Below, one piece after another: positions 2,075 through 29,855 of a stretch of DNA of 29,936 nt. The notes beneath the pieces are model-generated. The model worked only from the letters and a program-made list of their open reading frames with translations, was not told where the DNA came from and did not search any database. The translations under genes were made by a program, and so were the position numbers. This stretch comes from a virus. Numbering within the stretch: the stretch's first letter is position 1; each line of letters opens with the position of its first letter. The DNA lies in the IMG/VR virus record IMGVR_UViG_3300037847_006539, positions 1 to 29,936 of that record; one strand, given 5' to 3'.

Positions 2075-2554
2075 TCACCTTAGTTTCATATAGCCACCAG
2101 CCCTTTGGGCTTTCTTGGCTCGGTTATACAAATCTCTATCATGGCCTTTTGTTACAGTGTTTCCCTTTCGTAGAAAGCTATATACTCTGGCCTTGGCCCA
2201 TTGTGATTGCGTGGCCCCTGGCCTATGGGAAACAGCCCAAGCCGCTTCACCCTTTTCGTATACACGTCGGACAATGGAAGATGGTATTTTCATTTCAGCC
2301 GCTACGGAGCTGATGAACTTGTTCTTCGCTGAAGAAGCCTTGGATTTGGCACTTCTTTCTGATACTCGACTTCTGAATCTGGTCAATGATTTTGTATACT
2401 TGGATGGCTTTGTTTTGGCCGTCTTATCCCCAGCCAATGGAGCATAAGACGGTTTCTTTTGTGTTGCTCTTCTTCGTATTTGGGCCGCTCTTTTGGCCGC
2501 CATACGTCCAGATAACCCAGCCACATTTTTTCTTTGTACCTTTCTTTTGGCCAT
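2075..2554 (-). CDS. Basic phage protein with a DUF5824-like C-terminal module
   Basis: This 159-residue protein has an N-terminal half packed with Lys, Arg and Ala (AKRKVQRKN at the start), typical of nucleic-acid binding tails. The C-terminal half, VYEKGEAAWAVSHRPGATQ then WAKARVYSFLRKG then DLYNRAKKAQ, resembles a small domain I associate with DUF5824 in phage proteins (G..A......RPG.T...W..AR..SF). I chose the ATG at 2554, not the one at 2572, because it forms a TAATG overlap with the stop of the helicase gene, like other junctions in this operon. Function is unknown; DNA binding is an inference from charge. Confidence 0.65.
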   Translation of the reverse strand: MAKRKVQRKNVAGLSGRMAAKRAAQIRRRATQKKPSYAPLAGDKTAKTKPSKYTKSLTRFRSRVSERSAKSKASSAKNKFISSVAAEMKIPSSIVRRVYEKGEAAWAVSHRPGATQSQWAKARVYSFLRKGNTVTKGHDRDLYNRAKKAQRAGGYMKLR

Positions 2555-3804
2555 TATCGCCCCCAAGCCCATTTTCTTCCATTGTCGGTATATCGCCTTG
2601 CCTTAGTATACCCTAATTCCATCAGTATCGATTCAATAATTATTCTTGCCTTGTGGTCACGTTGTGCCACTGGGATATCCATCCTTGATAAAATATCATC
2701 CACTTGGAAATATTGTGGAAGCTGTTTAAGAAGAAGTTGGATGGTTGGGGTCCATGGGTGATTGGCTGTGAATGCTTCTCTTCCATTTTCCCTAAGAAGT
2801 TCTTCTTCATCGGATAACCACCACTGAAATGATTCATCATTGGCAAGATGTAAGGCTTCCAACCATAATTGTTCTCTGTCTCGTTTCAGTCCCTTGATAT
2901 CTATCATTCTTCCCTTGGGCCATGGTGTCATTTCTCCATTCTCCCAATCATATCCACACATCACGGGCCACCAACGACGGGAACCCGTGGCATCTGTCAA
3001 GATGTCCAGTCTATTGGTGGTGGCGATAAAGGAACATCTTCTGGGAAGGTCTATCCTTAGCTTTCCATATGGCAATCTGAGACTATCCACTTTCTCGTCA
3101 ATGAATGCTTTTTCGACTTTCTTATCTTTGGCACGTTTGGCCATCTCCTTGAGTTCATACAATAACTTCCCTTGGATGAGTATGACAGCATCTTTGGAAC
3201 CCATTTCCAGGGGAGTATCCCCAAACCATCTTGGGAGAATGGCCAATGTTTCCACGGCTGTACTTTTCCCAAGTCCTTGGCGACCGAACAAAGCCAAACA
3301 GGCTTCATGTTTCACGGGTTTGTCAATGGTGGAAAACATGGCGCGCTTTATGGCACCCACAAAATATTTCTTGGAATATGCTCTATTCAATGGGCTGGGT
3401 TCAGCACCAAAATATCTTTCCAGAAGAAATTCCAATCTTGGTTTCCCATCCCATTCCTTCCCATCAAAATATTCCTTCAAAGGGTTGTATTGCTTATCTT
3501 CAGCCACTTGGCCAACGCTTTCCAAAACCAATTGGGTGGATGGGGTGATATTGTATACCGCTTCCATCCACGTGGCTATTCTTCCCAATTGGTTATCATC
3601 CAAGGCCTTCCCATTCCAATACACTGTTTTATCGAAAGTGTTGAACCGGAGTTGGGAGAAGTATGGATGTTTCATCAACAGAAGAACCACATTATATCTG
3701 GATGATTTCACAGTCTGAACCACTTGGCCAGATATCACGCGTGTATTCATTTTCAGCCCAAGTTCGATTGGGTCCACATAATCTTTTATATTCATATCAA
3801 TCAT
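2554..3804 (-). CDS. VirE-type replicative helicase / P-loop ATPase
   Basis: This 416-residue protein matches the virulence-associated E family of phage and plasmid superfamily 3-like helicases. Residues 174-182 are a Walker A loop (GRQGLGKST). A Walker B-like LLYELKEM lies at about 214-221, a sensor segment SFIATTN at 258-264, and TGSRRWWPV at 273-281 is the typical arginine-containing family motif. It directly follows the primase gene, so the two probably form a primase-helicase pair unwinding the phage origin. I chose ATG 3804 because a perfect AGGAGA site lies six bases upstream. Longer starts would run into the primase gene. Confidence 0.88.
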   Translation of the reverse strand: MIDMNIKDYVDPIELGLKMNTRVISGQVVQTVKSSRYNVVLLLMKHPYFSQLRFNTFDKTVYWNGKALDDNQLGRIATWMEAVYNITPSTQLVLESVGQVAEDKQYNPLKEYFDGKEWDGKPRLEFLLERYFGAEPSPLNRAYSKKYFVGAIKRAMFSTIDKPVKHEACLALFGRQGLGKSTAVETLAILPRWFGDTPLEMGSKDAVILIQGKLLYELKEMAKRAKDKKVEKAFIDEKVDSLRLPYGKLRIDLPRRCSFIATTNRLDILTDATGSRRWWPVMCGYDWENGEMTPWPKGRMIDIKGLKRDREQLWLEALHLANDESFQWWLSDEEELLRENGREAFTANHPWTPTIQLLLKQLPQYFQVDDILSRMDIPVAQRDHKARIIIESILMELGYTKARRYTDNGRKWAWGR

Positions 3805-3815
3805 TTTCTTCTCTC

Positions 3816-4715
3816 CTAACATACACCAAACAATCTTCCCAAAGTGAACAAGGACCATCTTTGACCACAGCTATTCATATGGCCACAATTGGCCCATGAA
3901 CTATTGGCCACTGGTGAAACATAAAAATACGTAGCATCTGAACGTCCACAATTTGGGCATTTCCATCCAACGATTCTTGGGTTGCTTCCACCACTGTTTT
4001 TTCCTTGGATTTTGTTTCCCAACTCGATACGATAGCTTTCTTCTGTGGCCAGTTTTATGGATAGATGTTCTTTTGGGTCTTGTAGATAATATGGCATGTT
4101 CTCAATGGCTTTGGCGCGCTTTCTCATTCGTTCCAGCTTCTCCATCTGTTCTTTCTTTTTGTCCTCCACATACTTATGAGCCACATCAAAATCTATGGAA
4201 AACAGCCCATCCCCATCTTCTGGGATGTTGATATGGAATTGGGAACCAGTATTGGGAAGGAAATAGAACCTTCTTGGGTCCTTACATTGTTCATCCATCG
4301 TTCTTCCAGTGTATTCAAAAAACATCTTCTTACATTGCATCCAAGCCCCAGCCCAATAATCAACATTTTCAAAAGTTTCCACGGGTTTGGCAAATGGAAT
4401 AACCAGCCGCCATTTGTGCTTCTTCCTCGAATGGGAGAAAGATGTGTAGGCGATATACTTAAAATCTTGGAATGCTCTGTGATAGCCAAAATCCAATCCT
4501 TCATCAATATCGAATACAGCCAATGAAACAGCCATCACATCACTGTTTTTCAGTCCTCTTTTGAAGAACATGGCTGGGGAGAAAGCTGGAAGTTCTTCTT
4601 TCTTGTCTTCACTCCTGGGCATTGTAAGAAACAAGGCCAGTTGTTCAAAAGAATATTCTATTTGAATGGGGTTCTGTGTGTTGTATATTTTACGTAGGGC
4701 GGTTATAGTGTACAT
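3816..4715 (-). CDS. Primase-polymerase-like protein with C-terminal zinc ribbon
   Basis: The protein is about 299 residues. AVFDIDEG near residues 66-73 is the acidic hhhDhD motif of archaeo-eukaryotic type primases. TSFSHSRKKHKWRLVIP follows at about 91-107, with the His/Arg residues expected for nucleotide binding, and DPRRFYFLPN comes later. The C-terminus has a four-cysteine zinc ribbon (CPNC near 253-256, then CGH and SCGQRW). It would make RNA or DNA primers and sits immediately before the helicase. The AAGGA site is eight bases before ATG 4715. Upstream in-frame ATGs at 4721 and 4736 are possible but worse placed. Confidence 0.75.
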   Translation of the reverse strand: MYTITALRKIYNTQNPIQIEYSFEQLALFLTMPRSEDKKEELPAFSPAMFFKRGLKNSDVMAVSLAVFDIDEGLDFGYHRAFQDFKYIAYTSFSHSRKKHKWRLVIPFAKPVETFENVDYWAGAWMQCKKMFFEYTGRTMDEQCKDPRRFYFLPNTGSQFHINIPEDGDGLFSIDFDVAHKYVEDKKKEQMEKLERMRKRAKAIENMPYYLQDPKEHLSIKLATEESYRIELGNKIQGKNSGGSNPRIVGWKCPNCGRSDATYFYVSPVANSSWANCGHMNSCGQRWSLFTLGRLFGVC

Positions 4716-4747
4716 GTGCATTTTCCTTGTTTGCATATTAGGTACAT

Positions 4748-4775
4748 AAGGGATGATGATTATTCATCATCCCTT
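4748..4775. promoter_or_regulatory. Perfect 12-bp stem-loop between resolvase and primase genes
   Basis: The arms 4748-4759 and 4764-4775 pair perfectly around a four-base loop. The structure includes the stop codon of the RusA-like gene (4767-4769) and precedes the primase start by about 33 bases. On the plus strand it is followed by TCTTATTTTT, a terminator shape for antisense transcription. On the sense (minus) strand there is no U-tract, so there it may act in mRNA processing, stability or translation control. Confidence 0.55.
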
Positions 4776-5363
4776 TCTTATTTTTACGATGATTTTGGGT
4801 TCATAGGCCCAAAATTTGGCACCCCTTAGGGTGGGCACCATACAATCATTTTGTATAATGCCTGCATCCTCAAAACTATCCAGAACGGATTTTTCGAGGT
4901 TATCAGTATCCGGCTTTTGGATGTGCCATCCCCAAGCCTTGGTTTCCGAGAAGAACCAAAATTCGATATCCATATGAACAAAGTGGGGATATTGCTGTAT
5001 ATTCTTCTTCTTGATTTGTCGAATCATCTCTTTCTTGAAAAGACCATATTTTGGTGGCATGTATGTCCTTCCATATTTGGTAAAACGTGGCCTTGGGCAT
5101 GCCATGGGATGGACATCGAAAAGATAGATATCATCATAGATGAATTTTTCCCGTTCTCCCAATATTGTGGTCAATAATACCCTTTGCCATATTTGGATTT
5201 TGTATGGACTATCGGATATCGTTCGAATAATCTTCATCATCTGCTTATGGGTGGGCATCCGTTCACCACTCAACCATTTCAGCCACAAATCCTTCTTTGT
5301 TACCTTTGAAAGATTGGGATGTTCTTGGTCTAGTCGATTCAGTATTTGGGTAAAGGTTTCCAT
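4767..5363 (-). CDS. rusA: RusA-family Holliday junction resolvase with N-terminal extension
   Basis: This 198-residue protein carries the RusA core. PRPRFTKYGRTYMP starts near residue 90, KPDTDNLEKSVLDSFEDAG runs from 150, and ND follows near 172. The aspartates in KPDTDN, LD and ND are the metal-binding residues of this family, which cuts four-way junctions and supports packaging of unbranched DNA. The family core is about 110-120 residues; here about 80 extra N-terminal residues precede it, helical and unrecognised. ATG 5363 is chosen because GGAGG lies just upstream and it overlaps the methylase stop (TAATG). Confidence 0.85.
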   Translation of the reverse strand: METFTQILNRLDQEHPNLSKVTKKDLWLKWLSGERMPTHKQMMKIIRTISDSPYKIQIWQRVLLTTILGEREKFIYDDIYLFDVHPMACPRPRFTKYGRTYMPPKYGLFKKEMIRQIKKKNIQQYPHFVHMDIEFWFFSETKAWGWHIQKPDTDNLEKSVLDSFEDAGIIQNDCMVPTLRGAKFWAYEPKIIVKIRKG

Positions 5364-6193
5364 TATACTTCCTCCAATAAGCCCGATTTCCAAATCTGTT
5401 CACCAATCCATTGACTACATTGTGGAACGATGGCATTTCCCAGAGCTTTCAATCTAGCCACCCTTTTGGAAATCCCATCATCCACTGAACAAAATGGGGG
5501 TTCAGTCGTTCCTTTTGCCCAATGGTTTTTTGGGTATGGCCCATTTTTTTGGCTATCTCTACATTTAAATCTTCTTTTTGATTCCATGCTGATGGTGTTG
5601 ATGGATTGTTTTTCCATATTCTGGATTGTGGGGTGGGAAGCATCCCTTTCCAATGTTTTCGGAAAGATGGGGCGGCTTGGTTTGCTTTGGCTGTTGGCGT
5701 CGGATAAATAGCAGATGGAAAACCATCTGGCCCTTCTGTGATTGGCCCCAAAATCTGAAGCTCGAATAATTGTCCATTCTGAATCATACCCGATTTCGGC
5801 AAGGGACCCGAGAACGTCGAGTCCCCCCAAGTGAAGGATATTTGCAACGTTTTCCAAGACAACGACCCTTGGCTTTCTTCTGAGGTTGCCAATAATCCTA
5901 TGCATTTCCCACCAAAGGCCCGACTTTTTACCATGTATACCTTCCATTTTTCCAGCGTTACTCAAATCCTGACAAGGAAAACCACCACAAACTATAGTGG
6001 GTGGTTCCAGTTCTTTGGCTTGGATTGTGGTAACATCATTATATAATTTGGCCTTGGGCCAATGCTTCTTCAATATCGATTGACAATATTTGTCTTTCTC
6101 CACTTGCCAGATGGTGGATGAATTGGGAATGGCACGTTCCAAACCCAGTTCAAAACCTCCGATACCTGAAAATAAACTTCCAATGGTAATCAT
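5363..6193 (-). CDS. DNA (cytosine-5) methyltransferase
   Basis: This 276-residue protein has the ordered C5-methylase motifs: motif I GSLFSGIGGFE at 5-15, catalytic GGFPCQDLS with Cys74, ENV at 114-116, NHRRARWF at about 151-158, a variable target-recognition segment, and KALGNAIVPQ near the C-terminus. It methylates cosine-ring carbon 5 of cytosine in a short site that cannot be read from sequence. No partner endonuclease is adjacent, so it is an orphan enzyme likely protecting phage DNA from restriction. ATG 6193 overlaps the regulator stop (ATGA). The upstream TTG at 6208 is less likely. It is shorter than typical bacterial Dcm, but normal for phage. Confidence 0.92.
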   Translation of the reverse strand: MITIGSLFSGIGGFELGLERAIPNSSTIWQVEKDKYCQSILKKHWPKAKLYNDVTTIQAKELEPPTIVCGGFPCQDLSNAGKMEGIHGKKSGLWWEMHRIIGNLRRKPRVVVLENVANILHLGGLDVLGSLAEIGYDSEWTIIRASDFGANHRRARWFSICYLSDANSQSKPSRPIFPKTLERDASHPTIQNMEKQSINTISMESKRRFKCRDSQKNGPYPKNHWAKGTTEPPFCSVDDGISKRVARLKALGNAIVPQCSQWIGEQIWKSGLLEEV

Positions 6194-6483
6194 GATACCA
6201 AATCCCAAATCACCATGGGTTCCACTTCCAGAGCATTGGAAAACTTTTTGATGTGGTTGATATTCAAAGGTCTTTTTCCATTCAACAACCTGGAAAGCAG
6301 TGTTTCATCCATGTTCATCTTATTGGCCAAATCTCTTTGGGACAATCCATACTCGTTCATCTTGAGACAAACCCAAACAGGGAAAGTTGGGTTCTTGAGT
6401 TTTTCACCAGCTCCCACCATTCCATATTCTTTTACCAATCTCCTGATGGGTCGATAATTCATAAGTTCTTCTGTAATTTTCAT
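6190..6483 (-). CDS. HTH (Cro/CI or HigA-like) transcriptional regulator
   Basis: This 97-residue protein contains a lambda-repressor type helix-turn-helix at about residues 40-90: MNEYGLSQRDLANKMNMDE, then LLSRLLNGKRPLNINHIKKF, where LSQRDLA is the positioning helix and the LSRLLNG region the recognition side. A good AGGAG site lies eight to nine bases before the ATG. It is the first gene of the leftward early operon and lies beside two operator-like palindromes, so it is the natural candidate for the switch repressor. The fold also occurs in HigA-type antitoxins, but no toxin is adjacent. Confidence 0.82.
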   Translation of the reverse strand: MKITEELMNYRPIRRLVKEYGMVGAGEKLKNPTFPVWVCLKMNEYGLSQRDLANKMNMDETLLSRLLNGKRPLNINHIKKFSNALEVEPMVIWDLVS

Positions 6484-7888: not shown

Positions 7889-8527
7889 ATGATACACATT
7901 TACAATCAAGATTGTATGGAAGCCATGGCATCCATGCAAGATAACCAATTCGATTTGGCCATAGTGGACCCACCATATGGTATAGGCATAGATGGCCAGA
8001 AAGAATCTATATGTAAGAATCCAAAGCATAATAGAAAATATTTTGAACACAAGGGATGGGATACAAAACCACCTTCAAAAAAATACTTTGATGAATTATT
8101 TCGTGTTTCAAAAAATCAAATAATATGGGGCGCTAATTATTATCCACAATATCTTTTCTCCTCAAAGGGCTGGATAATATGGGATAAAGGCCAAAAAGGA
8201 TTAACAATGTCAGATTGTGAACTTGCATTTTCTTCTTTTAATCGCGCCACTCGAATATTTGTATGTAATCGTAGGGCATTAGCGCAAGAAGGAACGATTC
8301 ACCCCACACAAAAGCCTATAAAACTATATACTTGGATTCTTGATAAGTATGCCAAGAAGGGGTGGAAGATATTGGATACCCATCTGGGAAGTGGTTCTTC
8401 TGCCATAGCTGCCCATAATATGGGCTATGAGTTCCATGGATACGAGCTGGACAAGGAATATTATCTGGCAGCCAAAGAAAGACTGGAAAACCACCAAAGA
8501 CAATTAAAACTTCCATTGGAGATATAG
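7889..8527 (+). CDS. DNA methyltransferase, N6-adenine or N4-cytosine, beta-type order
   Basis: This 212-residue protein has the catalytic motif DPPYG at 27-31 first, HPTQKP at 138-143, then the SAM-binding segment ILDTHLGSGSSAIAA near 161-175 followed by YELDKEYYLAAKERL. This order (catalytic before SAM-binding) defines the beta class that includes CcrM-like enzymes, not the alpha class of Dam. It methylates exocyclic amino groups of A or C in an unknown site. No endonuclease is adjacent, so it is an orphan. The gene is visibly more AT-rich than its neighbours, suggesting more recent acquisition. It lies on the opposite arm of the switch from the C5-methylase. Confidence 0.9.
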   Translation: MIHIYNQDCMEAMASMQDNQFDLAIVDPPYGIGIDGQKESICKNPKHNRKYFEHKGWDTKPPSKKYFDELFRVSKNQIIWGANYYPQYLFSSKGWIIWDKGQKGLTMSDCELAFSSFNRATRIFVCNRRALAQEGTIHPTQKPIKLYTWILDKYAKKGWKILDTHLGSGSSAIAAHNMGYEFHGYELDKEYYLAAKERLENHQRQLKLPLEI

Positions 8528-9524: not shown

Positions 9525-10385
9525 TCAAACCCCCAAGTATTCAACCATATCCAAGCCCCCACAGTCTATCTTCTTATTGGAGACATGAAAATGGTGTACA
9601 AATCCTTTCCACTTTCCTTTGGTGGCTGGTTCATAGAGATTATCTATCATCTGGCCATTCTTTATTGGACATCGTAACGGAATATCACAAGCATGGGCCA
9701 CAGCCTTCCAAAGGGCTTGAAGGGCTTTCATCTGGATGGGATAGAAACCCATATGTGGTTCCAGCTTCTTCCCTCTGACAGTTCCACCCCACAATGGTCG
9801 TTCTGGAAATCCGTTCTTGGTATACCATGATTGATATTTTGGATAATACGCGTTGGCAACCTCGACACCGATGGCAAATTTATTTGTGTTTCCAGCGTGG
9901 AAGGTGATGTGTTGCATATCACAAGTTTGGTATATGGTTCCATCATTATCAATCAAGAAGTGGACCGACAATCCACGCTTATCCAATACCCTTTGGCATA
10001 TGGAAGAAGAAAGGCATACATCCCAATGGTTTACAAAAATCTTTGGCTCCCTTGGTTCACCAATCACCTTTCTATAATGTTTGGCTTTGTGGCCACCATC
10101 TTCATCCCAGAGAACAACCCGTTCCCACTCGATATCAAAAAAGTTTCCATCATAGACAATCTTCTTTGTTCCTGGGGAAACTTCTTTGGGTTCCCACTTT
10201 GATATTTCGGATTCTCTCTTTACAAAGATACGTCTATATGTGGCGGGTCCACATAATCCATCATCGTCCAATCCATGTTCCCTTTGGAATTCCATAATGG
10301 CTTCATCCAATATTCTTCCAAAGGAATCAACACCAAACCATTGTGGGGTCCATCCAAATTTCCTAGCTGAATCTTGATTATACAT
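9525..10385 (-). CDS. Endolysin: N-acetylmuramoyl-L-alanine amidase with peptidoglycan-binding domain
   Basis: This is a 286-residue protein. Residues 5-52 resemble a peptidoglycan-binding repeat (EFQREHGLDDDGLCGPAT). Residues about 115-275 are an amidase_2 domain: FVNHWDVC gives the first zinc ligand, TFHAGNTNKFAIGVEVAN the second His and acid, and GFVHHFHVSNKKIDCGG the C-terminal ligands. It cuts the amide bond between muramic acid and the stem peptide at lysis. No signal peptide is seen, so it needs a holin, for which the next gene is a candidate. ATG 10385 fits AGG ten bases upstream; 10394 is also possible. Confidence 0.9.
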   Translation of the reverse strand: MYNQDSARKFGWTPQWFGVDSFGRILDEAIMEFQREHGLDDDGLCGPATYRRIFVKRESEISKWEPKEVSPGTKKIVYDGNFFDIEWERVVLWDEDGGHKAKHYRKVIGEPREPKIFVNHWDVCLSSSICQRVLDKRGLSVHFLIDNDGTIYQTCDMQHITFHAGNTNKFAIGVEVANAYYPKYQSWYTKNGFPERPLWGGTVRGKKLEPHMGFYPIQMKALQALWKAVAHACDIPLRCPIKNGQMIDNLYEPATKGKWKGFVHHFHVSNKKIDCGGLDMVEYLGV

Positions 10386-12105
10386 TTCTTTCATACCTGT
10401 TTGGGTTTTCGTCAATCTTCATATCTATAAGCCAACGGCCACCACTGAAAACTTTCTGAATGATTTGGCACCGATGGTTATTCAGTCCAATATCATTATC
10501 AGTTATCTCCACTATATCACCCAATACAAGATAACCATATCGAATAGATACACTATATTGTACCGTTCTTGTGGGTAGTGCTTCCCTTTCCAAGATATCT
10601 TGGGCTATCCTTTGGGCAGTGAGATTCGAATAACAATAATCCAGTTCTATAACTTTCTTCTTCTTCCCATATCTTTGGATGGATATCATGGATTTGGGAT
10701 GGGCTATATATGCCGTACTGGATAACGTTCCACCAGCTGGGATAACATTGGAAACCTGAACGAATGTGGTGAAATCATCCACCACCCCATTTCTGGCATA
10801 TCTCACAGTGATAACATTGGAAACATCTTCTGGGGTGTTTTCCGTTGTTACTGGGCCAAACCTTTGGAAATCCGGTCCCTCTATGATGGATAATCTTGGG
10901 CTTAGGTCAATCCCACTTTGGGCCATATCAAGAACGGGTTTCAGTCCATATGGACCATTCACGACATGGATGGGAAGATGGGCCAGAATATTCTTTTGGA
11001 GCCACTGAAACACTGTGATTTTATCATCATTGACGTATCCAGCGAATTCGTATTGATTGAGATATGGCCTAAGTGAATTCCATGCTTCATAATCGATATC
11101 GTCCGTTAGTTCACTCAGTAACCACAAACAGATATCACCAGCCCCAGAAAGGTTTCCTGTTCCCACTGGATTGGGATACGCCCCACCATCATCCCACTCA
11201 ACCCATACTTGTCTATCTGTATTGGCCGCTACACTTTGTGGGATGTGGCTGGAATTCAATATCTTGACGTATGTATATACTCGATTATCTATATTTACAA
11301 AGGTGAATATGTTGGAACTATCTGTTTCACCAGTATTGGAAAACAGATTCACAGAAGAAGCATTGGTGACATGGCCAGCCACAAGATAATACACTGGTTG
11401 ACCAGCCGCCCCACTATCAAAGGCAATAACATAAGCTGGGGTTATGGGTATACTGGCATCCAAACCATTCGAATGTTCAACCCCATGGAGTTCACCGAAT
11501 ACCCATGGAATGGCCTTCCCTCTATGAATATCCTGAACCTCCACCAATCCGCGTTCATATGTGAAGTCGGGTTCCACATATAAAGCATTGGAACAAGATA
11601 CATCCTCGATATACATATTCTCACCAATAACCGTAGCCAATAAGCCTTGGGAAGAAATGAATACTTCATTCTCTATACTGAATTCCACATATCCGGTTTC
11701 CTGCTCTGGATGCCCATATACTGGGGTGGTGATAATACCTTGGAAGATGATGGGTCTGTTCCCATATTCCGTTATAATCTGGCCATTCTGGACAAGTACA
11801 TAACCAATTTTGGCCTTGGAACCTTCAATGAACTTTCCATTCATTTGGTCTTGGGCTATGTTCCTATCTGGGAAGGTGATGGCGATGGATATGGAATCGG
11901 CTTCTATCGATATATCCCCAACTTGTTTCAGTGATTGGGAAACTTCCACATCTTCCAATCCACCCACATATGGATATGATTTCCCATCATCATCTTCCAA
12001 ATCCAAAGTGATGGTGGCAAATCTATATTCTTCTCCGAGATATTCTATTTCCAACGTCCATATAATATCGACATCTTCCCAATCTGTACGTGACCCATAA
12101 AACAT
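10378..12105 (-). CDS. Tail tip or baseplate-hub-like protein
   Basis: This is a 575-residue protein. Its beta-rich N-terminus (WTLEIEYLGEEYRFATI), long middle and C-terminal segment (AQDILEREALPTRTVQYSVS, then LVLGDIVEITDNDIGL) resemble phage tail tip or hub proteins, where the latter is an OB-like hub region. The gene lies between the large tip/receptor protein and the endolysin, the usual place. It starts in a TAATG overlap at 12105. Its role is to build the distal tail end with the 1100-residue neighbour. Assignment is by order, size and general pattern, not by a diagnostic motif. Confidence 0.65.
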   Translation of the reverse strand: MFYGSRTDWEDVDIIWTLEIEYLGEEYRFATITLDLEDDDGKSYPYVGGLEDVEVSQSLKQVGDISIEADSISIAITFPDRNIAQDQMNGKFIEGSKAKIGYVLVQNGQIITEYGNRPIIFQGIITTPVYGHPEQETGYVEFSIENEVFISSQGLLATVIGENMYIEDVSCSNALYVEPDFTYERGLVEVQDIHRGKAIPWVFGELHGVEHSNGLDASIPITPAYVIAFDSGAAGQPVYYLVAGHVTNASSVNLFSNTGETDSSNIFTFVNIDNRVYTYVKILNSSHIPQSVAANTDRQVWVEWDDGGAYPNPVGTGNLSGAGDICLWLLSELTDDIDYEAWNSLRPYLNQYEFAGYVNDDKITVFQWLQKNILAHLPIHVVNGPYGLKPVLDMAQSGIDLSPRLSIIEGPDFQRFGPVTTENTPEDVSNVITVRYARNGVVDDFTTFVQVSNVIPAGGTLSSTAYIAHPKSMISIQRYGKKKKVIELDYCYSNLTAQRIAQDILEREALPTRTVQYSVSIRYGYLVLGDIVEITDNDIGLNNHRCQIIQKVFSGGRWLIDMKIDENPNRYERNV

Positions 12106-15408: not shown

Positions 15409-17607
15409 TCAATATCCTTTTCTTCCAGTGGAAGTTCCACCCATTCCCATGGCTGTTCTTCCCTTTATAAACCTATCATAATGTTTGAAAGGATTCATCA
15501 CTATTACAGTGGGTTCCAATCCTTGGCCCCGTTCAATGGCCCTTACTCCTTCAGCACCTATCTTATTGACGGCTGACGTGGATAGTATGGCTTCTCCTCT
15601 TTTCGCCCTCACCATGGTTTCGTCTGGGGCCAATGGGCTGGCATCCCCAACCATTCCACCCATATGAAATTTGGGCTGTTGTGCTGATATGATGGCCAGT
15701 TGGGCCGCACCAATGGCACCCATGGCACCCATGGCAAAGGGACCAAGTGGGGCCACAGCCACCACATTTTTGGCAGTTTCTATAACTACATCAGCCATGG
15801 AAGCCGCTTTTCGTATCCCAAAGGCTATTTCTTCCGTTTCTTTTGTCTTGGCTCCAAAGGTTTCCACCATCTGGGCCGCTGTTTCAAATCCGGTTCCCAA
15901 CTGCCCAACCATAAACATGGCCGCGTTGGCTTCTGCTTCTTTTCGTAGTTTCACCGATTCCAAGTGTTGTTCCAGAACTTGGCCCATCTTGGAAGATACC
16001 TTGTCCATGTTATCCATCTGGACTTGGAATACTTCATTTTCAGCGTCAATCTTAGCGTTTTTTATCTCTTCCGTTATCTGGTCGCTTCTTACTTGAAAGG
16101 CTTCTTCCAGCTCTAAAAGTTTGGCATCTTCTTCAGCCGTTCTTTCTTTCAAGAATAATCTTTCAATCTCTGTTCCCAATGTATCATTGATGATTTCTTG
16201 GGCTTTTAAGAGCTTTTCTATTTCTCTATCACGGATGGCCAATATCTGTTCTTCTTCACCCAACGAACTTATCCTTCTTTGGGTTTGTTTCTCGATAGAC
16301 GAATCGATATCCCTTAGCACAGTGGCCAATATCTTTTCAGCCTTGGCCAGTTCATTCACTTCTTTGGCTACCTTGGCCACCCGTCCAGTTCTGGGGACCC
16401 GTGCAAGTGATGGACCCCCAGCCGGTCCACCAGTGGATGGGCCTTGGGCTGTGGGTGCTGACATGGTGGCGGCCAAAGATTTTCTAAAATCTTCCAGTCT
16501 TGTGGTGGCTCTATCGACTGTACCCGAAAACATGTTTCCAGCTGATGAAGTAAAAGTCTGTAATTGTTCATTAAATACTTGTTGGGCGCGCGCTGCATCT
16601 TCTGTACTACCCGTGATTCCTTGCAGTATCATATTCATGGCGGCCAATTGTAAGTTTCCACTGGCTATAACCGTTCCAAATACATCCCCAGTGATGGAAC
16701 CCAGCAATATAATAGATTCTGTGGCTCCCAGAATGGCATTGGTCAAACCTCGACCACCAGAACCACTTCCACCCATCAGCACATCCACCAATCGCATCAT
16801 TTCGCCCATGACAACATTGGCAGCCGTGGCGGCTACTCGTTGGAAATCTGCCATCTGGTTGGTCATGTTGGGACCCGTGGAAACCCCAAATTCTTCAGCC
16901 AATGAAACAAAGGCTTCCAAATTATCTATGGCTCCACTTTGGATGAACTTGGGGCCAGCATTTCTTCCAAAGATTTCAGCCGCCAAAGCCGCTTTTTCTT
17001 CTTGGCTGGTTACCTGCTGAAGAGAATGGAAAACATCTTTCAAGACATCATCAGCCGTTCGCAACTGTTCAAAGCCATCCACTGTTTGGGTGGTGGCCAC
17101 TCCCAATTTCTGGAAAGCCTCCTGGGCTTTCTTGGAACCGTTGGCCGCTTGGTTCATCATCTGTGGAAGTCGTATCAAACCCATTTCCAGTTCTTCGAAG
17201 GCCAATCCACTTCCTTCAGCCGCCAATCTTAGCCCATTCAGTGTATCAACATTTACACCAGTCTTGGCACTGGCATCCACCAATTGATTGGACATATCCG
17301 CCATCTTTTGGCCAAACATCAGCACAGCCGCCCCAGCCGCGGCCGCCCCCACTGCTATGGAAGAGAAAGCCCCTTTGATATCCTTTCCCACTGCCTTGGA
17401 TTTCTTGGATACTTGTTCCAATGCTTCTTTCTGTTTCTTGGCTGATTTCTTGGCTTCTTTGGATGCTTTTTCGTAGGCTTTATCGAGATTGTCCACAATT
17501 TCTTTGGCTTCCTTCTCTGACACTTTGCCCACGCGTTGGAGCCCCTGAACCAGATTGGAAACTTCAGCCCGATAGGCTATCTGTATTGTCTTGTTTATAT
17601 CAGCCAT
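15409..17607 (-). CDS. Tail tape measure protein
   Basis: This is a 732-residue protein. A Lys/Ala-rich coiled coil (residues 30-80) leads to a hydrophobic Ala-rich segment (FSSIAVGAAAAGAAVLMFG) and the TP901-like core KTGVNVDTLNGLRLAAEGSG. A second helical coiled coil follows. The C-terminus has GGMVGDASPLAPDETMVRAKRGEAILS, a characteristic tape-measure ending. It sets tail length: at about 0.15 nm per residue this predicts roughly 110 nm. It is one of the longest genes, lies downstream of the chaperone genes and shares one base with the gene before it (TAATG at 17607). Confidence 0.92.
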   Translation of the reverse strand: MADINKTIQIAYRAEVSNLVQGLQRVGKVSEKEAKEIVDNLDKAYEKASKEAKKSAKKQKEALEQVSKKSKAVGKDIKGAFSSIAVGAAAAGAAVLMFGQKMADMSNQLVDASAKTGVNVDTLNGLRLAAEGSGLAFEELEMGLIRLPQMMNQAANGSKKAQEAFQKLGVATTQTVDGFEQLRTADDVLKDVFHSLQQVTSQEEKAALAAEIFGRNAGPKFIQSGAIDNLEAFVSLAEEFGVSTGPNMTNQMADFQRVAATAANVVMGEMMRLVDVLMGGSGSGGRGLTNAILGATESIILLGSITGDVFGTVIASGNLQLAAMNMILQGITGSTEDAARAQQVFNEQLQTFTSSAGNMFSGTVDRATTRLEDFRKSLAATMSAPTAQGPSTGGPAGGPSLARVPRTGRVAKVAKEVNELAKAEKILATVLRDIDSSIEKQTQRRISSLGEEEQILAIRDREIEKLLKAQEIINDTLGTEIERLFLKERTAEEDAKLLELEEAFQVRSDQITEEIKNAKIDAENEVFQVQMDNMDKVSSKMGQVLEQHLESVKLRKEAEANAAMFMVGQLGTGFETAAQMVETFGAKTKETEEIAFGIRKAASMADVVIETAKNVVAVAPLGPFAMGAMGAIGAAQLAIISAQQPKFHMGGMVGDASPLAPDETMVRAKRGEAILSTSAVNKIGAEGVRAIERGQGLEPTVIVMNPFKHYDRFIKGRTAMGMGGTSTGRKGY

Positions 17608-21660: not shown

Positions 21661-22584
21661 TTATGCGTCGGTTGCAATCTCTACAATTCGGCTTTGCTCA
21701 ATGACAGCCGCCCCAGTGTAAGCGGTTCCCACGATTTTGGTCAATGAAAACGCGCTATCTCGTTCGAGCTCCACAAGTACGGGAGTTCCAGCGGGACGGA
21801 TTTCACCAGCGGGACCAGCCAATGGAACGGGAGTACCCAAAGCGTATCCAATCGCACCGGCTGAGAACATAGCGCCTGAACGGTCCGTTCCATCACTTGG
21901 AACATATGCTGATTTGTGGACCTGTACACCCATGAAATCACCAACAAAACCTTGTCCAAGGCTTTTCATGAGTTCGTGATGTGCAGGGTTGAACGCAATG
22001 GCGTTAGCGGTTTCGTTACGAATAGAAGACTGAAGGTCAGCTATTTGGCGTGGGTGGAGAACTGCGAATAACTGGGATGGGTTATTGGCAATCTCGAGAA
22101 GATACAAAGCATCCATGAAGTCATCAACTGACATATCCACACCAGTGGTTCCAACAGAAGAAGAAGCACTGGAAAACAGAGCGCAAATCATTTCCATGAA
22201 ACGAGATTCAAAAGCTCCGGCCATTGATTCACTAAGTCGGAAAACGTCGATATCTTGGCCCAACTTTGTGAGCGCGGCGAGGTCGGTCAAATCGTACCGG
22301 AGTCCAATCCGTCCCACAGTGATATCTTCTGTGGCGGTTGTGAGTGCTGAAGATGTGATTTCTGAACCGTCACCCACTGTATTCATGGCCTCAAAGCCAT
22401 CCAAGCCAGCGTAACGAAGTGAAATGGCATCTGAACCCATGCCAGCGACATCACCAGCAAAAAGAAGAGCCCCAGAATTTCGGATAGAAGCCGCATCAAA
22501 AAGTAGCGCGCGAACTTCATTTTCAATCATCTTATCAAGACGGAGTCCATCAGTTTGAAGGACATTATATGTAATAGTAGACAT
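21661..22584 (-). CDS. Major capsid protein (HK97-fold type)
   Basis: This is a 307-residue protein. It follows the scaffold, portal and terminase genes in transcription order and has capsid-like features: an N-terminal helical arm (LRLDKMIENEVRALLFDAASI), VGRIGLRYDLTDLAALTK, HPRQIADLQSSIRNETANA in the spine helix region, and a C-terminal P-domain strand region (GTPVLVELERDSAFSLTKIV). The codon use is more GC-rich at third positions than its neighbours, as for a highly expressed gene. TAGGA precedes the ATG at 22584. The candidate origin and a cysteine-rich gene lie upstream, the large stem-loop downstream. Confidence 0.8.
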   Translation of the reverse strand: MSTITYNVLQTDGLRLDKMIENEVRALLFDAASIRNSGALLFAGDVAGMGSDAISLRYAGLDGFEAMNTVGDGSEITSSALTTATEDITVGRIGLRYDLTDLAALTKLGQDIDVFRLSESMAGAFESRFMEMICALFSSASSSVGTTGVDMSVDDFMDALYLLEIANNPSQLFAVLHPRQIADLQSSIRNETANAIAFNPAHHELMKSLGQGFVGDFMGVQVHKSAYVPSDGTDRSGAMFSAGAIGYALGTPVPLAGPAGEIRPAGTPVLVELERDSAFSLTKIVGTAYTGAAVIEQSRIVEIATDA

Positions 22585-22762
22585 TTTTTTTTCCTATATG
22601 GTTATTGGTTTTTCGTGGCCCTACACTGTTTACGGTTGTGACCCTAACCACACATTTACATTATACACAAGTTATTCATAGCTGTGAATAACCTGTGTAT
22701 AACTTTTTTCACAAGTTATTCATAGGCTGTGAAAAACCTGTGAATAACCTGTGTATAACTTT
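22585..22762. other. Candidate replication origin: cluster of DnaA-box-like 9-mers
   Basis: This 178-base gap has seven 9-mers fitting TTWTNCACA: plus strand at 22661-22669 (TTATACACA) and 22705-22713 (TTTTTCACA); minus strand at 22683-22691, 22694-22702, 22728-22736, 22739-22747 and 22750-22758. The minus-strand copies step by exactly 11 bases within each group. The two halves (about 22666-22709 and 22711-22762) are imperfect tandem copies. The region 22661-22702 also folds as an 18-bp inverted repeat with a six-base loop, followed by a T-run (22704-22709). Host DnaA binding and replication start are inferred. Confidence 0.65.
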
Positions 22763-23140
22763 CTATATACCTCTTTTCTGGAAGATTTCCAAGCATTCTT
22801 CAAAATCTTCTTTCACTGGATAATTTTTTTTACACCATCCAATCAGGTCTTTTTTGTTTCTCAGGTTTGTAATATTGCTGCACATCTCCCCACTCACTTC
22901 ACCAGTGGCGGAATTGGTTTGGGTCATACACATAAGTTCCCGACAAAGACCATCCCCATTCTTCCCAATGAAATCCGGTTCACATATCGGAAGAACCACA
23001 TCCAACTTTCCCAGTTCTTTGGCCACTGGGTCACTTGGAACCACAATGGTTTCCTGGGCTTTGTTTCCGTTCATTATTCCGAAAGTTACAGAGCCACCAA
23101 CGACCAATCCAACCACAGCCGCCACAATAATTTCTATCAT
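22763..23140 (-). CDS. Cysteine-rich membrane-anchored protein of unknown function
   Basis: This 125-residue product from ATG 23140 (GAGG five bases upstream) has one N-terminal membrane segment (IIVAAVVGLVVGGSVTFGI) and an outside-facing domain with six cysteines (ICEPD, LCRE, MCMT, MCSN, WCKK, ECLE), suggesting three disulfides. I have no family name. It lies directly upstream of the origin-like region and the capsid gene, and downstream of a terminator at 23152-23183. It may be a lysis, superinfection or virion surface protein; position does not settle this. Confidence 0.65.
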   Translation of the reverse strand: MIEIIVAAVVGLVVGGSVTFGIMNGNKAQETIVVPSDPVAKELGKLDVVLPICEPDFIGKNGDGLCRELMCMTQTNSATGEVSGEMCSNITNLRNKKDLIGWCKKNYPVKEDFEECLEIFQKRGI

Positions 23141-23204: not shown

Positions 23205-24905
23205 TTATAGAGAAATAGCTACATCAACAGTGACACCTGTCACACTTGTTACTCTCAAAGCAGTGGTGGAAACATAAACGACATCCAAGTGGATGAGGTT
23301 TCCAGCTGAGTCCATCGCTGAAACATGAACAAGTTTCTTTCCAAGATTATGGGTGATGGTTTGGGCTGTGTTGGCTGTTAGCGTAACTTGTGATTCATGT
23401 CGCAAGTCTTGAAGACGCAACGAAAAAGAACCATTGGAACTATCATAATTGATGAGTTCATCCGCTTGGGAACCAGCTGTGACAGCCGCGCGAACACGTG
23501 CATCTGTATAGTAAAGATTGTTACTTCCTTCAGCCACATCATCAGTATCGGCATCCAAAGAGTATTCACCAACGCCATCATAGGAAAGGCCAGTTCCAGC
23601 ACTGAATTCAGCAACGATATCAGAAAGAAGAACTTTGGCTTCACCAGTAGAACTATTGTATTGGAATAGGTTGGAATCTGGGGATGATACACTTTCGGCA
23701 CTGATGGCACCGCGCGCGCGCGCTTGCGTGAAATATTGGTTTGTTCCTTCTGAAACATCAGAAGTGGAACCATTGAAAGCAATAACGCCATTTGAAATTC
23801 CAATGGCAGTTCCACCACTGAAAACACCTCGAACGTTAGCAGTGGAAACCAACATATCACCACTGGAATTTGTGTATTGTAAAAGGTTCCCAGCATCTGA
23901 TGACGCTTGAACACTTCCACGCGCTCGAGATTGGGAGAAGTAAAGATTGGAACTTCCTTCATCGACATCATCAGAATCACCATTGAAAGAGATGGTACTT
24001 CCAGAAATGCCAATGGCAGTTCCACCAGTCAAGTTTATGCCGAAAACACCAGTAGAACTATTATAAGCCAAACCAGTTCCAGCACTTACAGCCGCGCGAG
24101 CTCTGGCATCCGTAAAGTAAAGATTGTTACTTCCTTCAGCGATATCATCACTATCGGCATCCAGTTCAAATTCACCAACGCCATCATAAGAAAGACCACT
24201 TCCAGCACTGAATTCACCAGTAACATCAGAAATCAAAACTTTCATGGCACCAGTAGAACTATTGTATTGAAGAAGGTTCCCATCTGGGGATGATACACTT
24301 TCAGCACTGATGGCGTTACGCGCTCGAGCTTGGGTGAAGTATAGGTTCGATGTTCCTTCAGCGATATCATCAGTATCAGCATTCAGAGAGAAGGTGATTT
24401 GTCCGCTGTTTGTACTGGCAGAAAGACCAGAACCAGCCGCGATGTTTGCTGAAATGGTAGCATTGGAAGCATTTACCGTTATACCGTCACCAGCTTGGAG
24501 AACGGCCCCAACTTCAGCCGCTGAAAGTGGGCTTTCAATCTCTGTATAGTTGGCAGTACTTGAACCATTCGCACCGGAAACGATATAGGTTTCTGTTCCA
24601 GCACTTGGGGCGGTAAGAATAAGAACATCACCTTCTTTCAGTGAAGCGGCTGTGGAACCTTCATTGGCTACAAAATTAGCCAAACTGGTTTGGGTGCTGT
24701 CCACATGAACATCTGTAATGGCCAATGATGATATCGAAAGTTCACCATCTGCCACACTCAACATCGAGGAAGAGCCACTGGCAATAGCATTTATGAAAGA
24801 AAGCGCTGAAACATCTTGTTTTCGTACAAGGTGATTATCTGCACTTGGGGCGTTATCAGCTTGTACAGCCCCTTTAAAAGTTACGGATGGATTAAAAAAG
24901 TCCAT
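23205..24905 (-). CDS. Repeat-rich fibre protein (head fibre or tail fibre)
   Basis: This 566-residue Ser/Gly/Ala-rich protein has an N-terminal virion-attachment-like stretch (NHLVRKQDVSAL) and five copies of a 22-23 residue unit of the form DDxxEGSxNLYFTxARARxAxxA at residues 179-201, 253-275, 312-334, 382-403 and 455-477. Such units are common in trimeric phage fibres. The C-terminus (TITHNLGKKLVHVSAMDSAG) is a small beta domain also seen in the next small gene. The gene lies in the capsid region, not with the tail tip, so a head fibre is possible. GGAG lies seven bases before the ATG. Confidence 0.75.
   Translation of the reverse strand: MDFFNPSVTFKGAVQADNAPSADNHLVRKQDVSALSFINAIASGSSSMLSVADGELSISSLAITDVHVDSTQTSLANFVANEGSTAASLKEGDVLILTAPSAGTETYIVSGANGSSTANYTEIESPLSAAEVGAVLQAGDGITVNASNATISANIAAGSGLSASTNSGQITFSLNADTDDIAEGTSNLYFTQARARNAISAESVSSPDGNLLQYNSSTGAMKVLISDVTGEFSAGSGLSYDGVGEFELDADSDDIAEGSNNLYFTDARARAAVSAGTGLAYNSSTGVFGINLTGGTAIGISGSTISFNGDSDDVDEGSSNLYFSQSRARGSVQASSDAGNLLQYTNSSGDMLVSTANVRGVFSGGTAIGISNGVIAFNGSTSDVSEGTNQYFTQARARGAISAESVSSPDSNLFQYNSSTGEAKVLLSDIVAEFSAGTGLSYDGVGEYSLDADTDDVAEGSNNLYYTDARVRAAVTAGSQADELINYDSSNGSFSLRLQDLRHESQVTLTANTAQTITHNLGKKLVHVSAMDSAGNLIHLDVVYVSTTALRVTSVTGVTVDVAISL
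23475..24371 (-). repeat. Five-copy intragenic repeat in the fibre gene
   Basis: The fibre gene encodes five near-identical blocks of 22-23 residues separated by 37-51 residues, with longer similar stretches between copies 1 and 4 (AESVSSPD) and copies 2 and 5 (LSYDGVGE precedes both). Recombination between copies could change the fibre length. One copy contains the alternating CG run at 23711-23723. Confidence 0.8.
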
Positions 24906-27876: not shown

Positions 27877-29322
27877 TTATTTCCTGTGTATTGGTATTTT
27901 CGAAAATTTGGGGGCACTGTATTTTACATCAAGAATGGGTACCACTGCATAACGTAATGCGTCAATTATATGCTTCCATTCTGACAGTCTATCCATGGCC
28001 CCACTTTTTTTCAAGGTCCAAGAAGATAGAGACCTAATAAGCCGTTTACATTTGGGATGGACAATAAATCTTCCTTGAACCATGGCTTCATGGATAAGTT
28101 GGCACCCATAATAGACGGACCATCTAGGCTTATGGGCTGTATGGATACGAAATGGGCATGAATTAGCCGGATAATCCAGAACATGTTCCAAGGCTGAACG
28201 AAGAAGCGAATTGGACATTCTTCCACCATGTTTTCCACCACCATGGGGACGGTCCCCAGTCCAGCGATTGATTTGTAGTGGTTCCAATCCGTTTCTTCTT
28301 ATCATTGCCACCATTGCCCTGGCATGGCGTCGAGCTGTGCCTTTTTCCTTTTCGCCACCAGCCGCAAAATATTCATCCAGAACATAGATGGTTTTATCAT
28401 CTTCTGATATCGCCACCAATAAGGCACACTGGGAAGTAGGTGTGTGCCCATGGTCGATACCGATGGAAAACTTATATTCTCCCACTGGACAAGGTGAATC
28501 GGATATATGTTGTTCTCCAAAATGTTCGAATATACGGCCATCCATGGGAACCCCAACATCCCAACTGGCTTCAAATCTGGCCCCTTTATCTATGGAAAGA
28601 TAGGTATCCGCCACCCTATCCACGTCTTCTTGGGATAACAAGGGTTCACAGCCCAATGGGGTGGTATTCTCCACCGATAAGGGAGCATGGATATCCCTAA
28701 CCTTTGGTGGTTTGGTTTCTGTTAAATTTTTCAACCATGTTAAATCACCCCCCCCTATTGGTGTCATCGTCATAAGCATCCGTCCTCTATTCCTCAATAG
28801 TCGAGCCGCAATTTCTCCAAAAAGTGCTTGGGGGCAGGGTTCATCCGCCCATGCAAAATCAATCGTACCAGATGCGGCTCCCAAGGTGCCTTGGTTGGCT
28901 GTCTTGAAGAACAACATGGAACCATTCTTGAGTTTGAACCATGGGTTCTTGGCTCTGTATCCTCTTCCTTCTTGATATTCTGGGCTATCTTCTGCATATT
29001 CATCAGCACCAATCAAAGAATGAATTTTGGATTGGATAATTTTGGATTGTTCCCAGCTATGGACAATGGCCCAAACTGTGATGGGTGGTTTTATGTGGCT
29101 AATATCCTTCCAAGGTGAAAAGCCTTTCATATGATATAAGCATTCAGCCGCCCCGACATAAGTTTTTCCCAGCTGATTGGCCGCACGAAATAGAGTTATG
29201 GGATGGGTACATTCCAGAACTTCTTTCTGTGGTGGGGATGGCATGAAAAAATCCAGAGGTTTGGCATCTGCCAATTCTTTCAGTTCTTTGGTTTTTCGCG
29301 CTGCTTGTAAAAGAGAAATCAT
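27877..29322 (-). CDS. terL: Terminase large subunit (packaging ATPase-nuclease)
   Basis: This is a 481-residue protein. Residues 46-54 (RAANQLGKT) are the Walker A-like loop, 154-162 (IDFAWADEP) the Walker B with catalytic Glu, and LMTMTP near 183-188 the coupling motif. The C-terminal nuclease has the acidic residues D290 (SIGIDHGH), D316 (YVLDEYF) and D454 (HIIDALRYA). It drives DNA translocation and cuts it at head filling. Start at 29322 overlaps the small terminase stop (ATGA). It is followed by the portal with a two-base gap. Confidence 0.93.
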   Translation of the reverse strand: MISLLQAARKTKELKELADAKPLDFFMPSPPQKEVLECTHPITLFRAANQLGKTYVGAAECLYHMKGFSPWKDISHIKPPITVWAIVHSWEQSKIIQSKIHSLIGADEYAEDSPEYQEGRGYRAKNPWFKLKNGSMLFFKTANQGTLGAASGTIDFAWADEPCPQALFGEIAARLLRNRGRMLMTMTPIGGGDLTWLKNLTETKPPKVRDIHAPLSVENTTPLGCEPLLSQEDVDRVADTYLSIDKGARFEASWDVGVPMDGRIFEHFGEQHISDSPCPVGEYKFSIGIDHGHTPTSQCALLVAISEDDKTIYVLDEYFAAGGEKEKGTARRHARAMVAMIRRNGLEPLQINRWTGDRPHGGGKHGGRMSNSLLRSALEHVLDYPANSCPFRIHTAHKPRWSVYYGCQLIHEAMVQGRFIVHPKCKRLIRSLSSWTLKKSGAMDRLSEWKHIIDALRYAVVPILDVKYSAPKFSKIPIHRK

Positions 29323-29855
29323 TTCTGTTTCAGTCTCACAACATTGGACCCATCCACCATCAGTTCATCCATAATCTGTTTCTTCAGAATGGGTGGAAGA
29401 GATTGGATGGCATCCACAATTTCTATCTTCAGCTGATGGGGTGAAGCTCCATGGGTTTCTTTGGATGCTTCCACAAATGTTCTAAGTTCATCATGTAGAG
29501 ATAGATGGAGTTTGTGGAGACTTCCCAAGGTATGAATAACTTTTTCATCCCGTGCAAACTCGATATCCGATTCAATCTCCAATAACTTACCAATCCTGAA
29601 TCTGATGGGGTCGGTATCGTAACTATCCATCACCTTCTTCTTGGCTTCTTCTCTGGCTTTGGCCTTGGCTTCATTCTTCTCTTTATCGGTTCGATATTTT
29701 TTCATCAGCCGGGAAACATTCGGAAGAGAACAGCCGAACTTTTTGGCGATGGCTGTATATGTCATCTCACCTTCCAGACAAAGCCTAACGATTTCTTGAC
29801 GTTGCCTTTCTGTAAGTTTGTGTTGGGGTGCTTTTCCTTTGGGATGCTTTGGCAT
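29319..29855 (-). CDS. terS: Terminase small subunit
   Basis: This is a 178-residue protein. The N-terminal HTH (LTERQRQEIVRLCLEGEMTY and IAKKFGCSLPNVSRLMKKY) recognises the packaging site. A charged coiled region (RTDKEKNEAKAKAREEAKKK) and an oligomerisation part follow. It is the first gene of the late operon, with the terminase large subunit overlapping by ATGA. The packaging site may lie in or near this gene or at the contig ends. No ribosome site was seen other than weak purines upstream of 29855. Confidence 0.82.
   Translation of the reverse strand: MPKHPKGKAPQHKLTERQRQEIVRLCLEGEMTYTAIAKKFGCSLPNVSRLMKKYRTDKEKNEAKAKAREEAKKKVMDSYDTDPIRFRIGKLLEIESDIEFARDEKVIHTLGSLHKLHLSLHDELRTFVEASKETHGASPHQLKIEIVDAIQSLPPILKKQIMDELMVDGSNVVRLKQK

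Follow-up and report, generated by a model that had tools for sequence, protein, structure and literature searches.

The window, meaning the whole 29,936-base stretch of DNA analysed here (virus record IMGVR_UViG_3300037847_006539, classed as linear by IMG/VR, which gives it no completeness estimate), carries most of its larger open reading frames (ORFs) on the minus strand, and the gap between the end of a 140-aa ORF and the major capsid protein gene is occupied by an array of 9-mers that resemble DnaA boxes (Table 1). A preliminary description had placed this array between capsid genes, which holds on one side, where the minus-strand major capsid gene lies, but not on the other, where the 140-aa ORF matched no PHROG or Pfam family. 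Elsewhere in the window, a 566-aa structural protein (23205-24905, minus strand) with structural and tail protein matches contains many degenerate 'AEGSSNLYFTDARARA'-type repeats, and two DNA methyltransferases (C5, N4/N6), at 5363-6208 on the minus strand and 7889-8527 on the plus strand, lie beside replication genes and the HTH_3 regulator. Neither a tRNA nor a dif/Xer site was found in the window. A DNA and protein search of annotated phages returned no capsid relatives, and a search of species genomes for prophages that might point to the bacterial host returned no close relatives of the capsid.

All seven TTWTNCACA 9-mers previously reported at 22661-22758 were present with 0 mismatches, five of them on the minus strand, where they form two groups with 11-bp spacing (starting at 22683 and 22694, and at 22728, 22739 and 22750), and the two halves of the array are indeed tandem near-copies, with repeats that are 84-100% identical and spaced 44-45 bp apart. 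Each repeat unit additionally holds one imperfect inverted box, whose CTATGAA heptamer is also present in relatives. Across the whole window, TTWTNCACA matched 11 times against 4.4 expected, and 300 dinucleotide shuffles yielded a maximum of 2 boxes within 98 bp against the 7 observed, which rules out chance clustering. Matches of the array to miRNA families were taken as chance, and no intrinsic terminator was found at the array. At loci L018, L214 and L262, the repeat units seem more alike within a phage than between phages, in the manner of concerted evolution, and every unit retains the CTATGAA heptamer, which disrupts perfect pairing of the inverted boxes.

The 18-bp stem described for one half of the array was recovered as a run of 18 pairs, and the other half folds too: as single-stranded DNA, positions 22640-22765 form two hairpins, one with the 18-pair run, at −24.1 kcal/mol (z −5.8, equalled by 0 of 200 shuffles). 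Two hairpins of this strength would suit a stretch that matters solely through its folding in single-stranded DNA or mRNA, for example in processing or priming, but relatives with the array layout of locus L002 retain the boxes and not the long hairpin, and a conserved G-to-A change disrupts perfect pairing in each unit, so that we regard this explanation as extremely improbable.

Table 1. Features of the window, with strand and remarks where available.
Feature	Position	Strand	Remarks
VapE-type helicase	2554-3858		
Primase-like neighbour of VapE-type helicase	3816-4736		
RusA	4767-5393		
Small HTH_3 protein	6190-6483		
Amidase	9525-10415		
Tape-measure protein	15409-17607		
Major capsid protein gene, 307 aa	21661-22584	-	Start codon at 22584; Pfam Phage_capsid_4, 37.5 bits (cut-off 27); PHROG 544, major head protein
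Structured leader RNA	22614-22652	-	Directly behind the -10 element
Leader P1	22646-22652 with 22614-22620	-	Swap test
Leader P2	22642-22644 with 22634-22636	-	In the window, the third pair is G-A
Leader pseudoknot	22638-22640 (CAC) with 22624-22626 (GTG)	-	Pair counts in 29 relatives
-10 element TATAAT	22660-22665	-	Promoter scan; overlaps the inverted box (22661-22669)
DnaA box TTATACACA	22661-22669	+	Overlaps the -10 element
Imperfect inverted box TTATTCATA	22672-22680	+	T for C at position 8
-35 element TTCACA	22683-22688	-	Promoter scan; last six bases of box TTATTCACA
DnaA box TTATTCACA, promoter-proximal	22683-22691	-	Contains the -35 element
DnaA box TTATACACA	22694-22702	-	
DnaA box TTTTTCACA	22705-22713	+	
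Imperfect inverted box TTATTCATA, second copy	22716-22724	+	
DnaA box TTTTTCACA	22728-22736	-	
DnaA box TTATTCACA	22739-22747	-	
DnaA box TTATACACA	22750-22758	-	4 bases away from the stop codon of the 140-aa ORF
Small ORF upstream of the array, 140 aa	22763-23185	-	
Large terminase	27877-29322		
HTH protein adjoining the large terminase	29319-29855		

The identity of the 9-mers was judged from relatives recruited via the capsid protein, without use of the motif. Among 11 relatives with the L002-like layout and 8 boxes (L014 was omitted as a repeat of L013 in this stretch), the seven fixed box positions deviated in 8 of 616 cases, whereas degenerate positions 3 and 5 deviated in 47 of 176 and the spacers between boxes in 112 of 899. 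With the fixed positions constrained and positions 3 and 5 free, the boxes appear to be under selection as DnaA boxes. The tandem 25-mer pattern with 11-bp phasing was also found at 55 loci in genome contigs of bacteria and archaea, where 25 of 130 neighbouring proteins were DnaA and 16 were DnaN, the setting of oriC (130 of the 140 listed ORFs were scanned). In viral DNA, the pattern was found in at least 120 stretches, varied in kind and position, and a scrambled version of the tandem pattern with the same composition in 1, ruling out an illusory pattern. The DnaA-box identity proposed earlier is thus well supported at the level of sequence, by constraint in relatives and by the same arrays at bacterial dnaA/dnaN. 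In one contig labelled as a Klebsiella pneumoniae MAG (L186), a protein is ~67% identical to the DnaA of Candidatus Binatia (L173), as is also the case for L183, and the Klebsiella pneumoniae label of L186 looks wrong.

Given that the window encodes two HTH proteins (6190-6483 and 29319-29855), the repeats could instead bind a phage-encoded regulator and resemble DnaA boxes by convergence. We consider this very unlikely, as the variation tolerated in the repeats is that of the DnaA consensus and identical arrays lie at bacterial dnaA/dnaN. A DnaA-type DNA-binding domain was found in 0 of 6 records (the window and five long relatives), which rules out a phage-encoded DnaA-like protein there and implies that the protein acting on the boxes would be the host's.

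A promoter scan of 22480-22900 identified a single sigma-70-like site, TTCACA-17-TATAAT on the minus strand, which matches 11 of 12 consensus bases; at a lower threshold, the scan gave a mean of 1.5 promoter-like sites in shuffles. TATAAT was the same in all 15 aligned sequences, and the -35/-10 pair with its 16-18 bp spacer is conserved among the related loci. Boxes were present in 21 of 23 loci (the window and 22 related loci, a count that includes three loci repeating others in this stretch), and in all 21 of these an exact TATAAT follows the end of the last forward box at a distance of 16-18 bp, with a core promoter element overlapped by a box in constant register, while the number of units further upstream varies, giving 5 to 12 boxes. 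In a second layout, typified by L002, the -35 element lies within a box and the -10 element outside. The register may have been inherited from one ancestor, so the 21 loci are not 21 independent events. The two loci that carry no box, L004 and L005, retain TATAAT, a TTTACA -35 element and the leader, indicating that the array is not required for the promoter. In the window, the array is predicted to be the promoter of the major capsid gene, with the -35 element inside one box and the -10 element overlapped by another, a role of the boxes as core capsid promoter that the earlier reading had missed.

In E. coli, datA serves as a titration locus. Like datA, the window array is a cluster of boxes potentially binding much DnaA, but datA works with accessory factors in a chromosomal setting, and the comparison covers the box cluster; a role of datA in DnaA-ATP hydrolysis has been reported. 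By analogy, the array could be a decoy that withdraws DnaA and stops host replication, its position at the promoter being merely that of a convenient non-coding gap. Consistent with such a sink, each genome carries many boxes, the number of units varies while units remain alike within a phage, and viral tandem arrays far outnumber those of the scrambled pattern. A pure sink is compatible with all observations but one, as it leaves unexplained the 16-18 bp register between the last box and the -10 element in 21 of 21 loci; moreover, seven boxes per genome is a small number before the phage has reached many copies. We regard it as unlikely, though still a serious candidate.

We then considered how widely the array is distributed. 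It was found at the capsid position in 16 of 18 relatives identified by capsid protein, and a wider capsid search returned 71 loci, of which 54 were examined, the remainder being repeats of loci already covered. Arrays were present in L212, L213, L214, L215 and L262 (74-84% capsid identity) and absent from L285 (72%) and from L265 and L266, the latter two assessed from partial matches only 41 and 47 residues long. Within 450 bp of the capsid start, none of 47 loci below 70% identity had more than one box; three of them had one, near the start codon. In 7 of 7 array-bearing records, the tandem two-box pattern was confined to the capsid gene, whereas 0 of 20 longer, more distant records, which are fragments, carried a tandem pair anywhere. 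On this distribution, the array would most simply be a lineage-specific addition, made within one branch, onto an older promoter and leader, although absence from fragmentary records is not proof. Several relatives also have an isolated box ~6.8 kb from the array, at a position corresponding approximately to the window gene adjoining the large terminase, which we read as putative coding sequence.

The same distribution bears on whether the array is a DnaA-dependent phage replication origin, as the preliminary description had suggested, with the promoter either incidental or transcriptionally activating the origin, as at ori-lambda. A VapE-type helicase is encoded by the window, by 3 of the 7 array-bearing records and by 12 of the 20 distant records, and the absence of the array where this helicase is present argues against an obligatory origin, although the records are fragments and origins can move. 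L285, L004 and L005 likewise lack the array, and the replication genes of the window (VapE-type helicase, primase-like protein and RusA) lie ~18 kb away. The cumulative GC skew keeps falling through 22.7 kb without an extremum, which is a weak test since gene strand dominates the skew. Repeats near the helicase, sought as iterons of an alternative origin, were scattered and in two or three copies only. An origin is still a candidate owing to the AT-rich 60-mer downstream, which ranks in the top 2% of the locus in 14 of 14 loci, albeit that intergenic DNA is AT-rich anyway. The arrays of other phages are often near very AT-rich DNA as well, with a top-1% 60-mer in 56 of the 91 loci, among 120 viral arrays, that had enough flank. 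The window also shares the identical tandem 11-bp box pattern with bacterial oriC beside dnaA/dnaN, but its array is accompanied by a promoter instead of an initiator gene. Overall, origin use found no support in the distant records, the skew or the gene order, and we consider it improbable, about as likely as a pure sink.

Tandem DnaA boxes in other viral contigs occur in several further contexts. In 24 of 120 viral array loci (L021, L031, L032, L049, L052 and others), the array is accompanied by a near-perfect dif-like (XerCD) sequence and mostly adjoins the gene for the terminase small subunit; these contigs might be phage-plasmids needing dimer resolution. In nine others (L020, L030, L039, L041, L058, L075, L087, L107 and L127), a G-run and AT-rich DNA come after the array, ahead of a promoter-like sequence and a small gene that neighbours an endolysin gene, an arrangement that looks far more origin-like than that of the window. 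In L063 (and, by similarity, L026 and L048), tandem DnaA boxes accompany a replication initiation protein of the microvirus type (PHROG 942).

Directly behind the -10 element, the transcript of the capsid promoter would begin with a structured leader, in which a helix (P1) encloses an H-type pseudoknot, with P2 formed by GGK and MCC, a U-CRY-A loop, a GUNAACA linker and an RYG partner. In 29 sequences, P2 and the pseudoknot were paired in 98.8% of cells compared with 85.8% after shuffling, with 27 double changes compared with 11; counts for further pair types in these 29 sequences were not above those in shuffles. The sequence of P1 is wholly different between phages, yet its pairing is retained: of 24 distinct flank types, 21 reached a helix score of at least 4, whereas 5000 swaps gave 5.6 such types on average and never more than 12. 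This test omitted L316, L317, L319, L320, L322, L324 and L325, which came from a looser scan and are probable chance matches, and L309, L310, L318, L321 and L326 as repeats; with all 59 distinct leaders retained, the score was reached in 43 of 59, against a mean of 27% in swaps. On this covariation, we take the leader to be a pseudoknot RNA that is more widely conserved than the array. The motif lies upstream of capsid genes down to ~42% identity, and also precedes three other genes, in L267, L292 and L294, the last of which codes for a scaffolding protein of the head (PHROG 194). For L292 and L294, an AGGA run that resembles a Shine-Dalgarno sequence lies within the 3′ strand of P1, just 5′ of the start codon, and tandem double copies of the leader occur in L221, L265, L307 and L323. 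Leader RNAs were also noted in L002, L219, L282, L294, L299, L307 and others.

The Rfam family GP20-b precedes phage GP20 genes. It is the nearest Rfam family to the leader (RF03003, typed as cis-regulatory), as the leader of L294, which lies upstream of the scaffold gene, aligns to it at 17.3 bits, compared with a gathering threshold of 36.2. The window leader gave no GP20-b match; unlike GP20-b, it precedes a capsid gene, and nothing resembling the first hairpin of the GP20-b model was seen. No leader among the sequences searched matched Rfam 15 at the gathering threshold, a match to PreQ1 (17.4 of 39 bits) was taken as chance, and Blast searches with short pieces of the leader yielded only partial, chance-like matches in annotated phages. 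The leader offers a second, independent lead on the control of the phage head operon.

Regulation of transcription by DnaA is established in other settings. In PMC8203912, DnaA is described as repressing or activating promoters via boxes, as at dnaA and nrdAB, and as excluding or stabilising RNA polymerase depending on its level and nucleotide; extra boxes, as on titrating plasmids, withdraw DnaA and relieve the repression of dnaA, and in phage lambda DnaA stimulates transcription at ori-lambda. The capsid promoter of the window resembles the E. coli dnaA and nrdAB promoters in being a sigma-70 promoter with DnaA boxes (PMC8203912), but its target is a phage capsid gene and its tandem 11-bp array includes the -35 element and overlaps the -10 element. 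Likewise, the role proposed below resembles that of DnaA at ori-lambda in that host DnaA would act on phage transcription (PMC8203912), but ori-lambda is used in replication, whereas the target in the window is a structural gene with no replication gene near. DnaA-controlled promoters are therefore already known; a capsid promoter made of a DnaA array is, as far as we searched, apparently undescribed, and a limited literature search found no DnaA at a phage structural-gene promoter.

Taking these observations together, we lean, with little more than even confidence, towards a predicted capsid promoter-operator made of host-DnaA boxes, through which DnaA would control capsid transcription. Control would probably be by repression that titration relieves; activation by DnaA is a less likely variant of the same idea. 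Host DnaA would bind the array in competition with RNA polymerase at the capsid promoter, keeping capsid transcription low as long as unbound DnaA remains. With every new phage genome adding 5-12 boxes, this free pool would be titrated and the promoter would open, which would couple capsid synthesis to phage copy number; a side effect would be a shortage of DnaA for the initiation of host replication.

More tentatively, and at a strength that we would call speculative, host DnaA may serve as a copy-number clock for the capsid, without a phage-encoded late activator and with the pseudoknot leader as a second layer of control. The DnaA-bound capsid promoter would then stay off until enough phage genomes had drained free DnaA, phage DNA copy number would set the time at which capsid synthesis begins, and the conserved leader on the transcript would add its control at head assembly.

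Phages should postpone capsid synthesis until there is DNA to package. In this marine phage group, a capsid promoter built of DnaA sites would link production of the shell to host DnaA and, if our reading is true, would tie the timing of capsid synthesis to replication in a simple way, via a host protein that the phage itself titrates.
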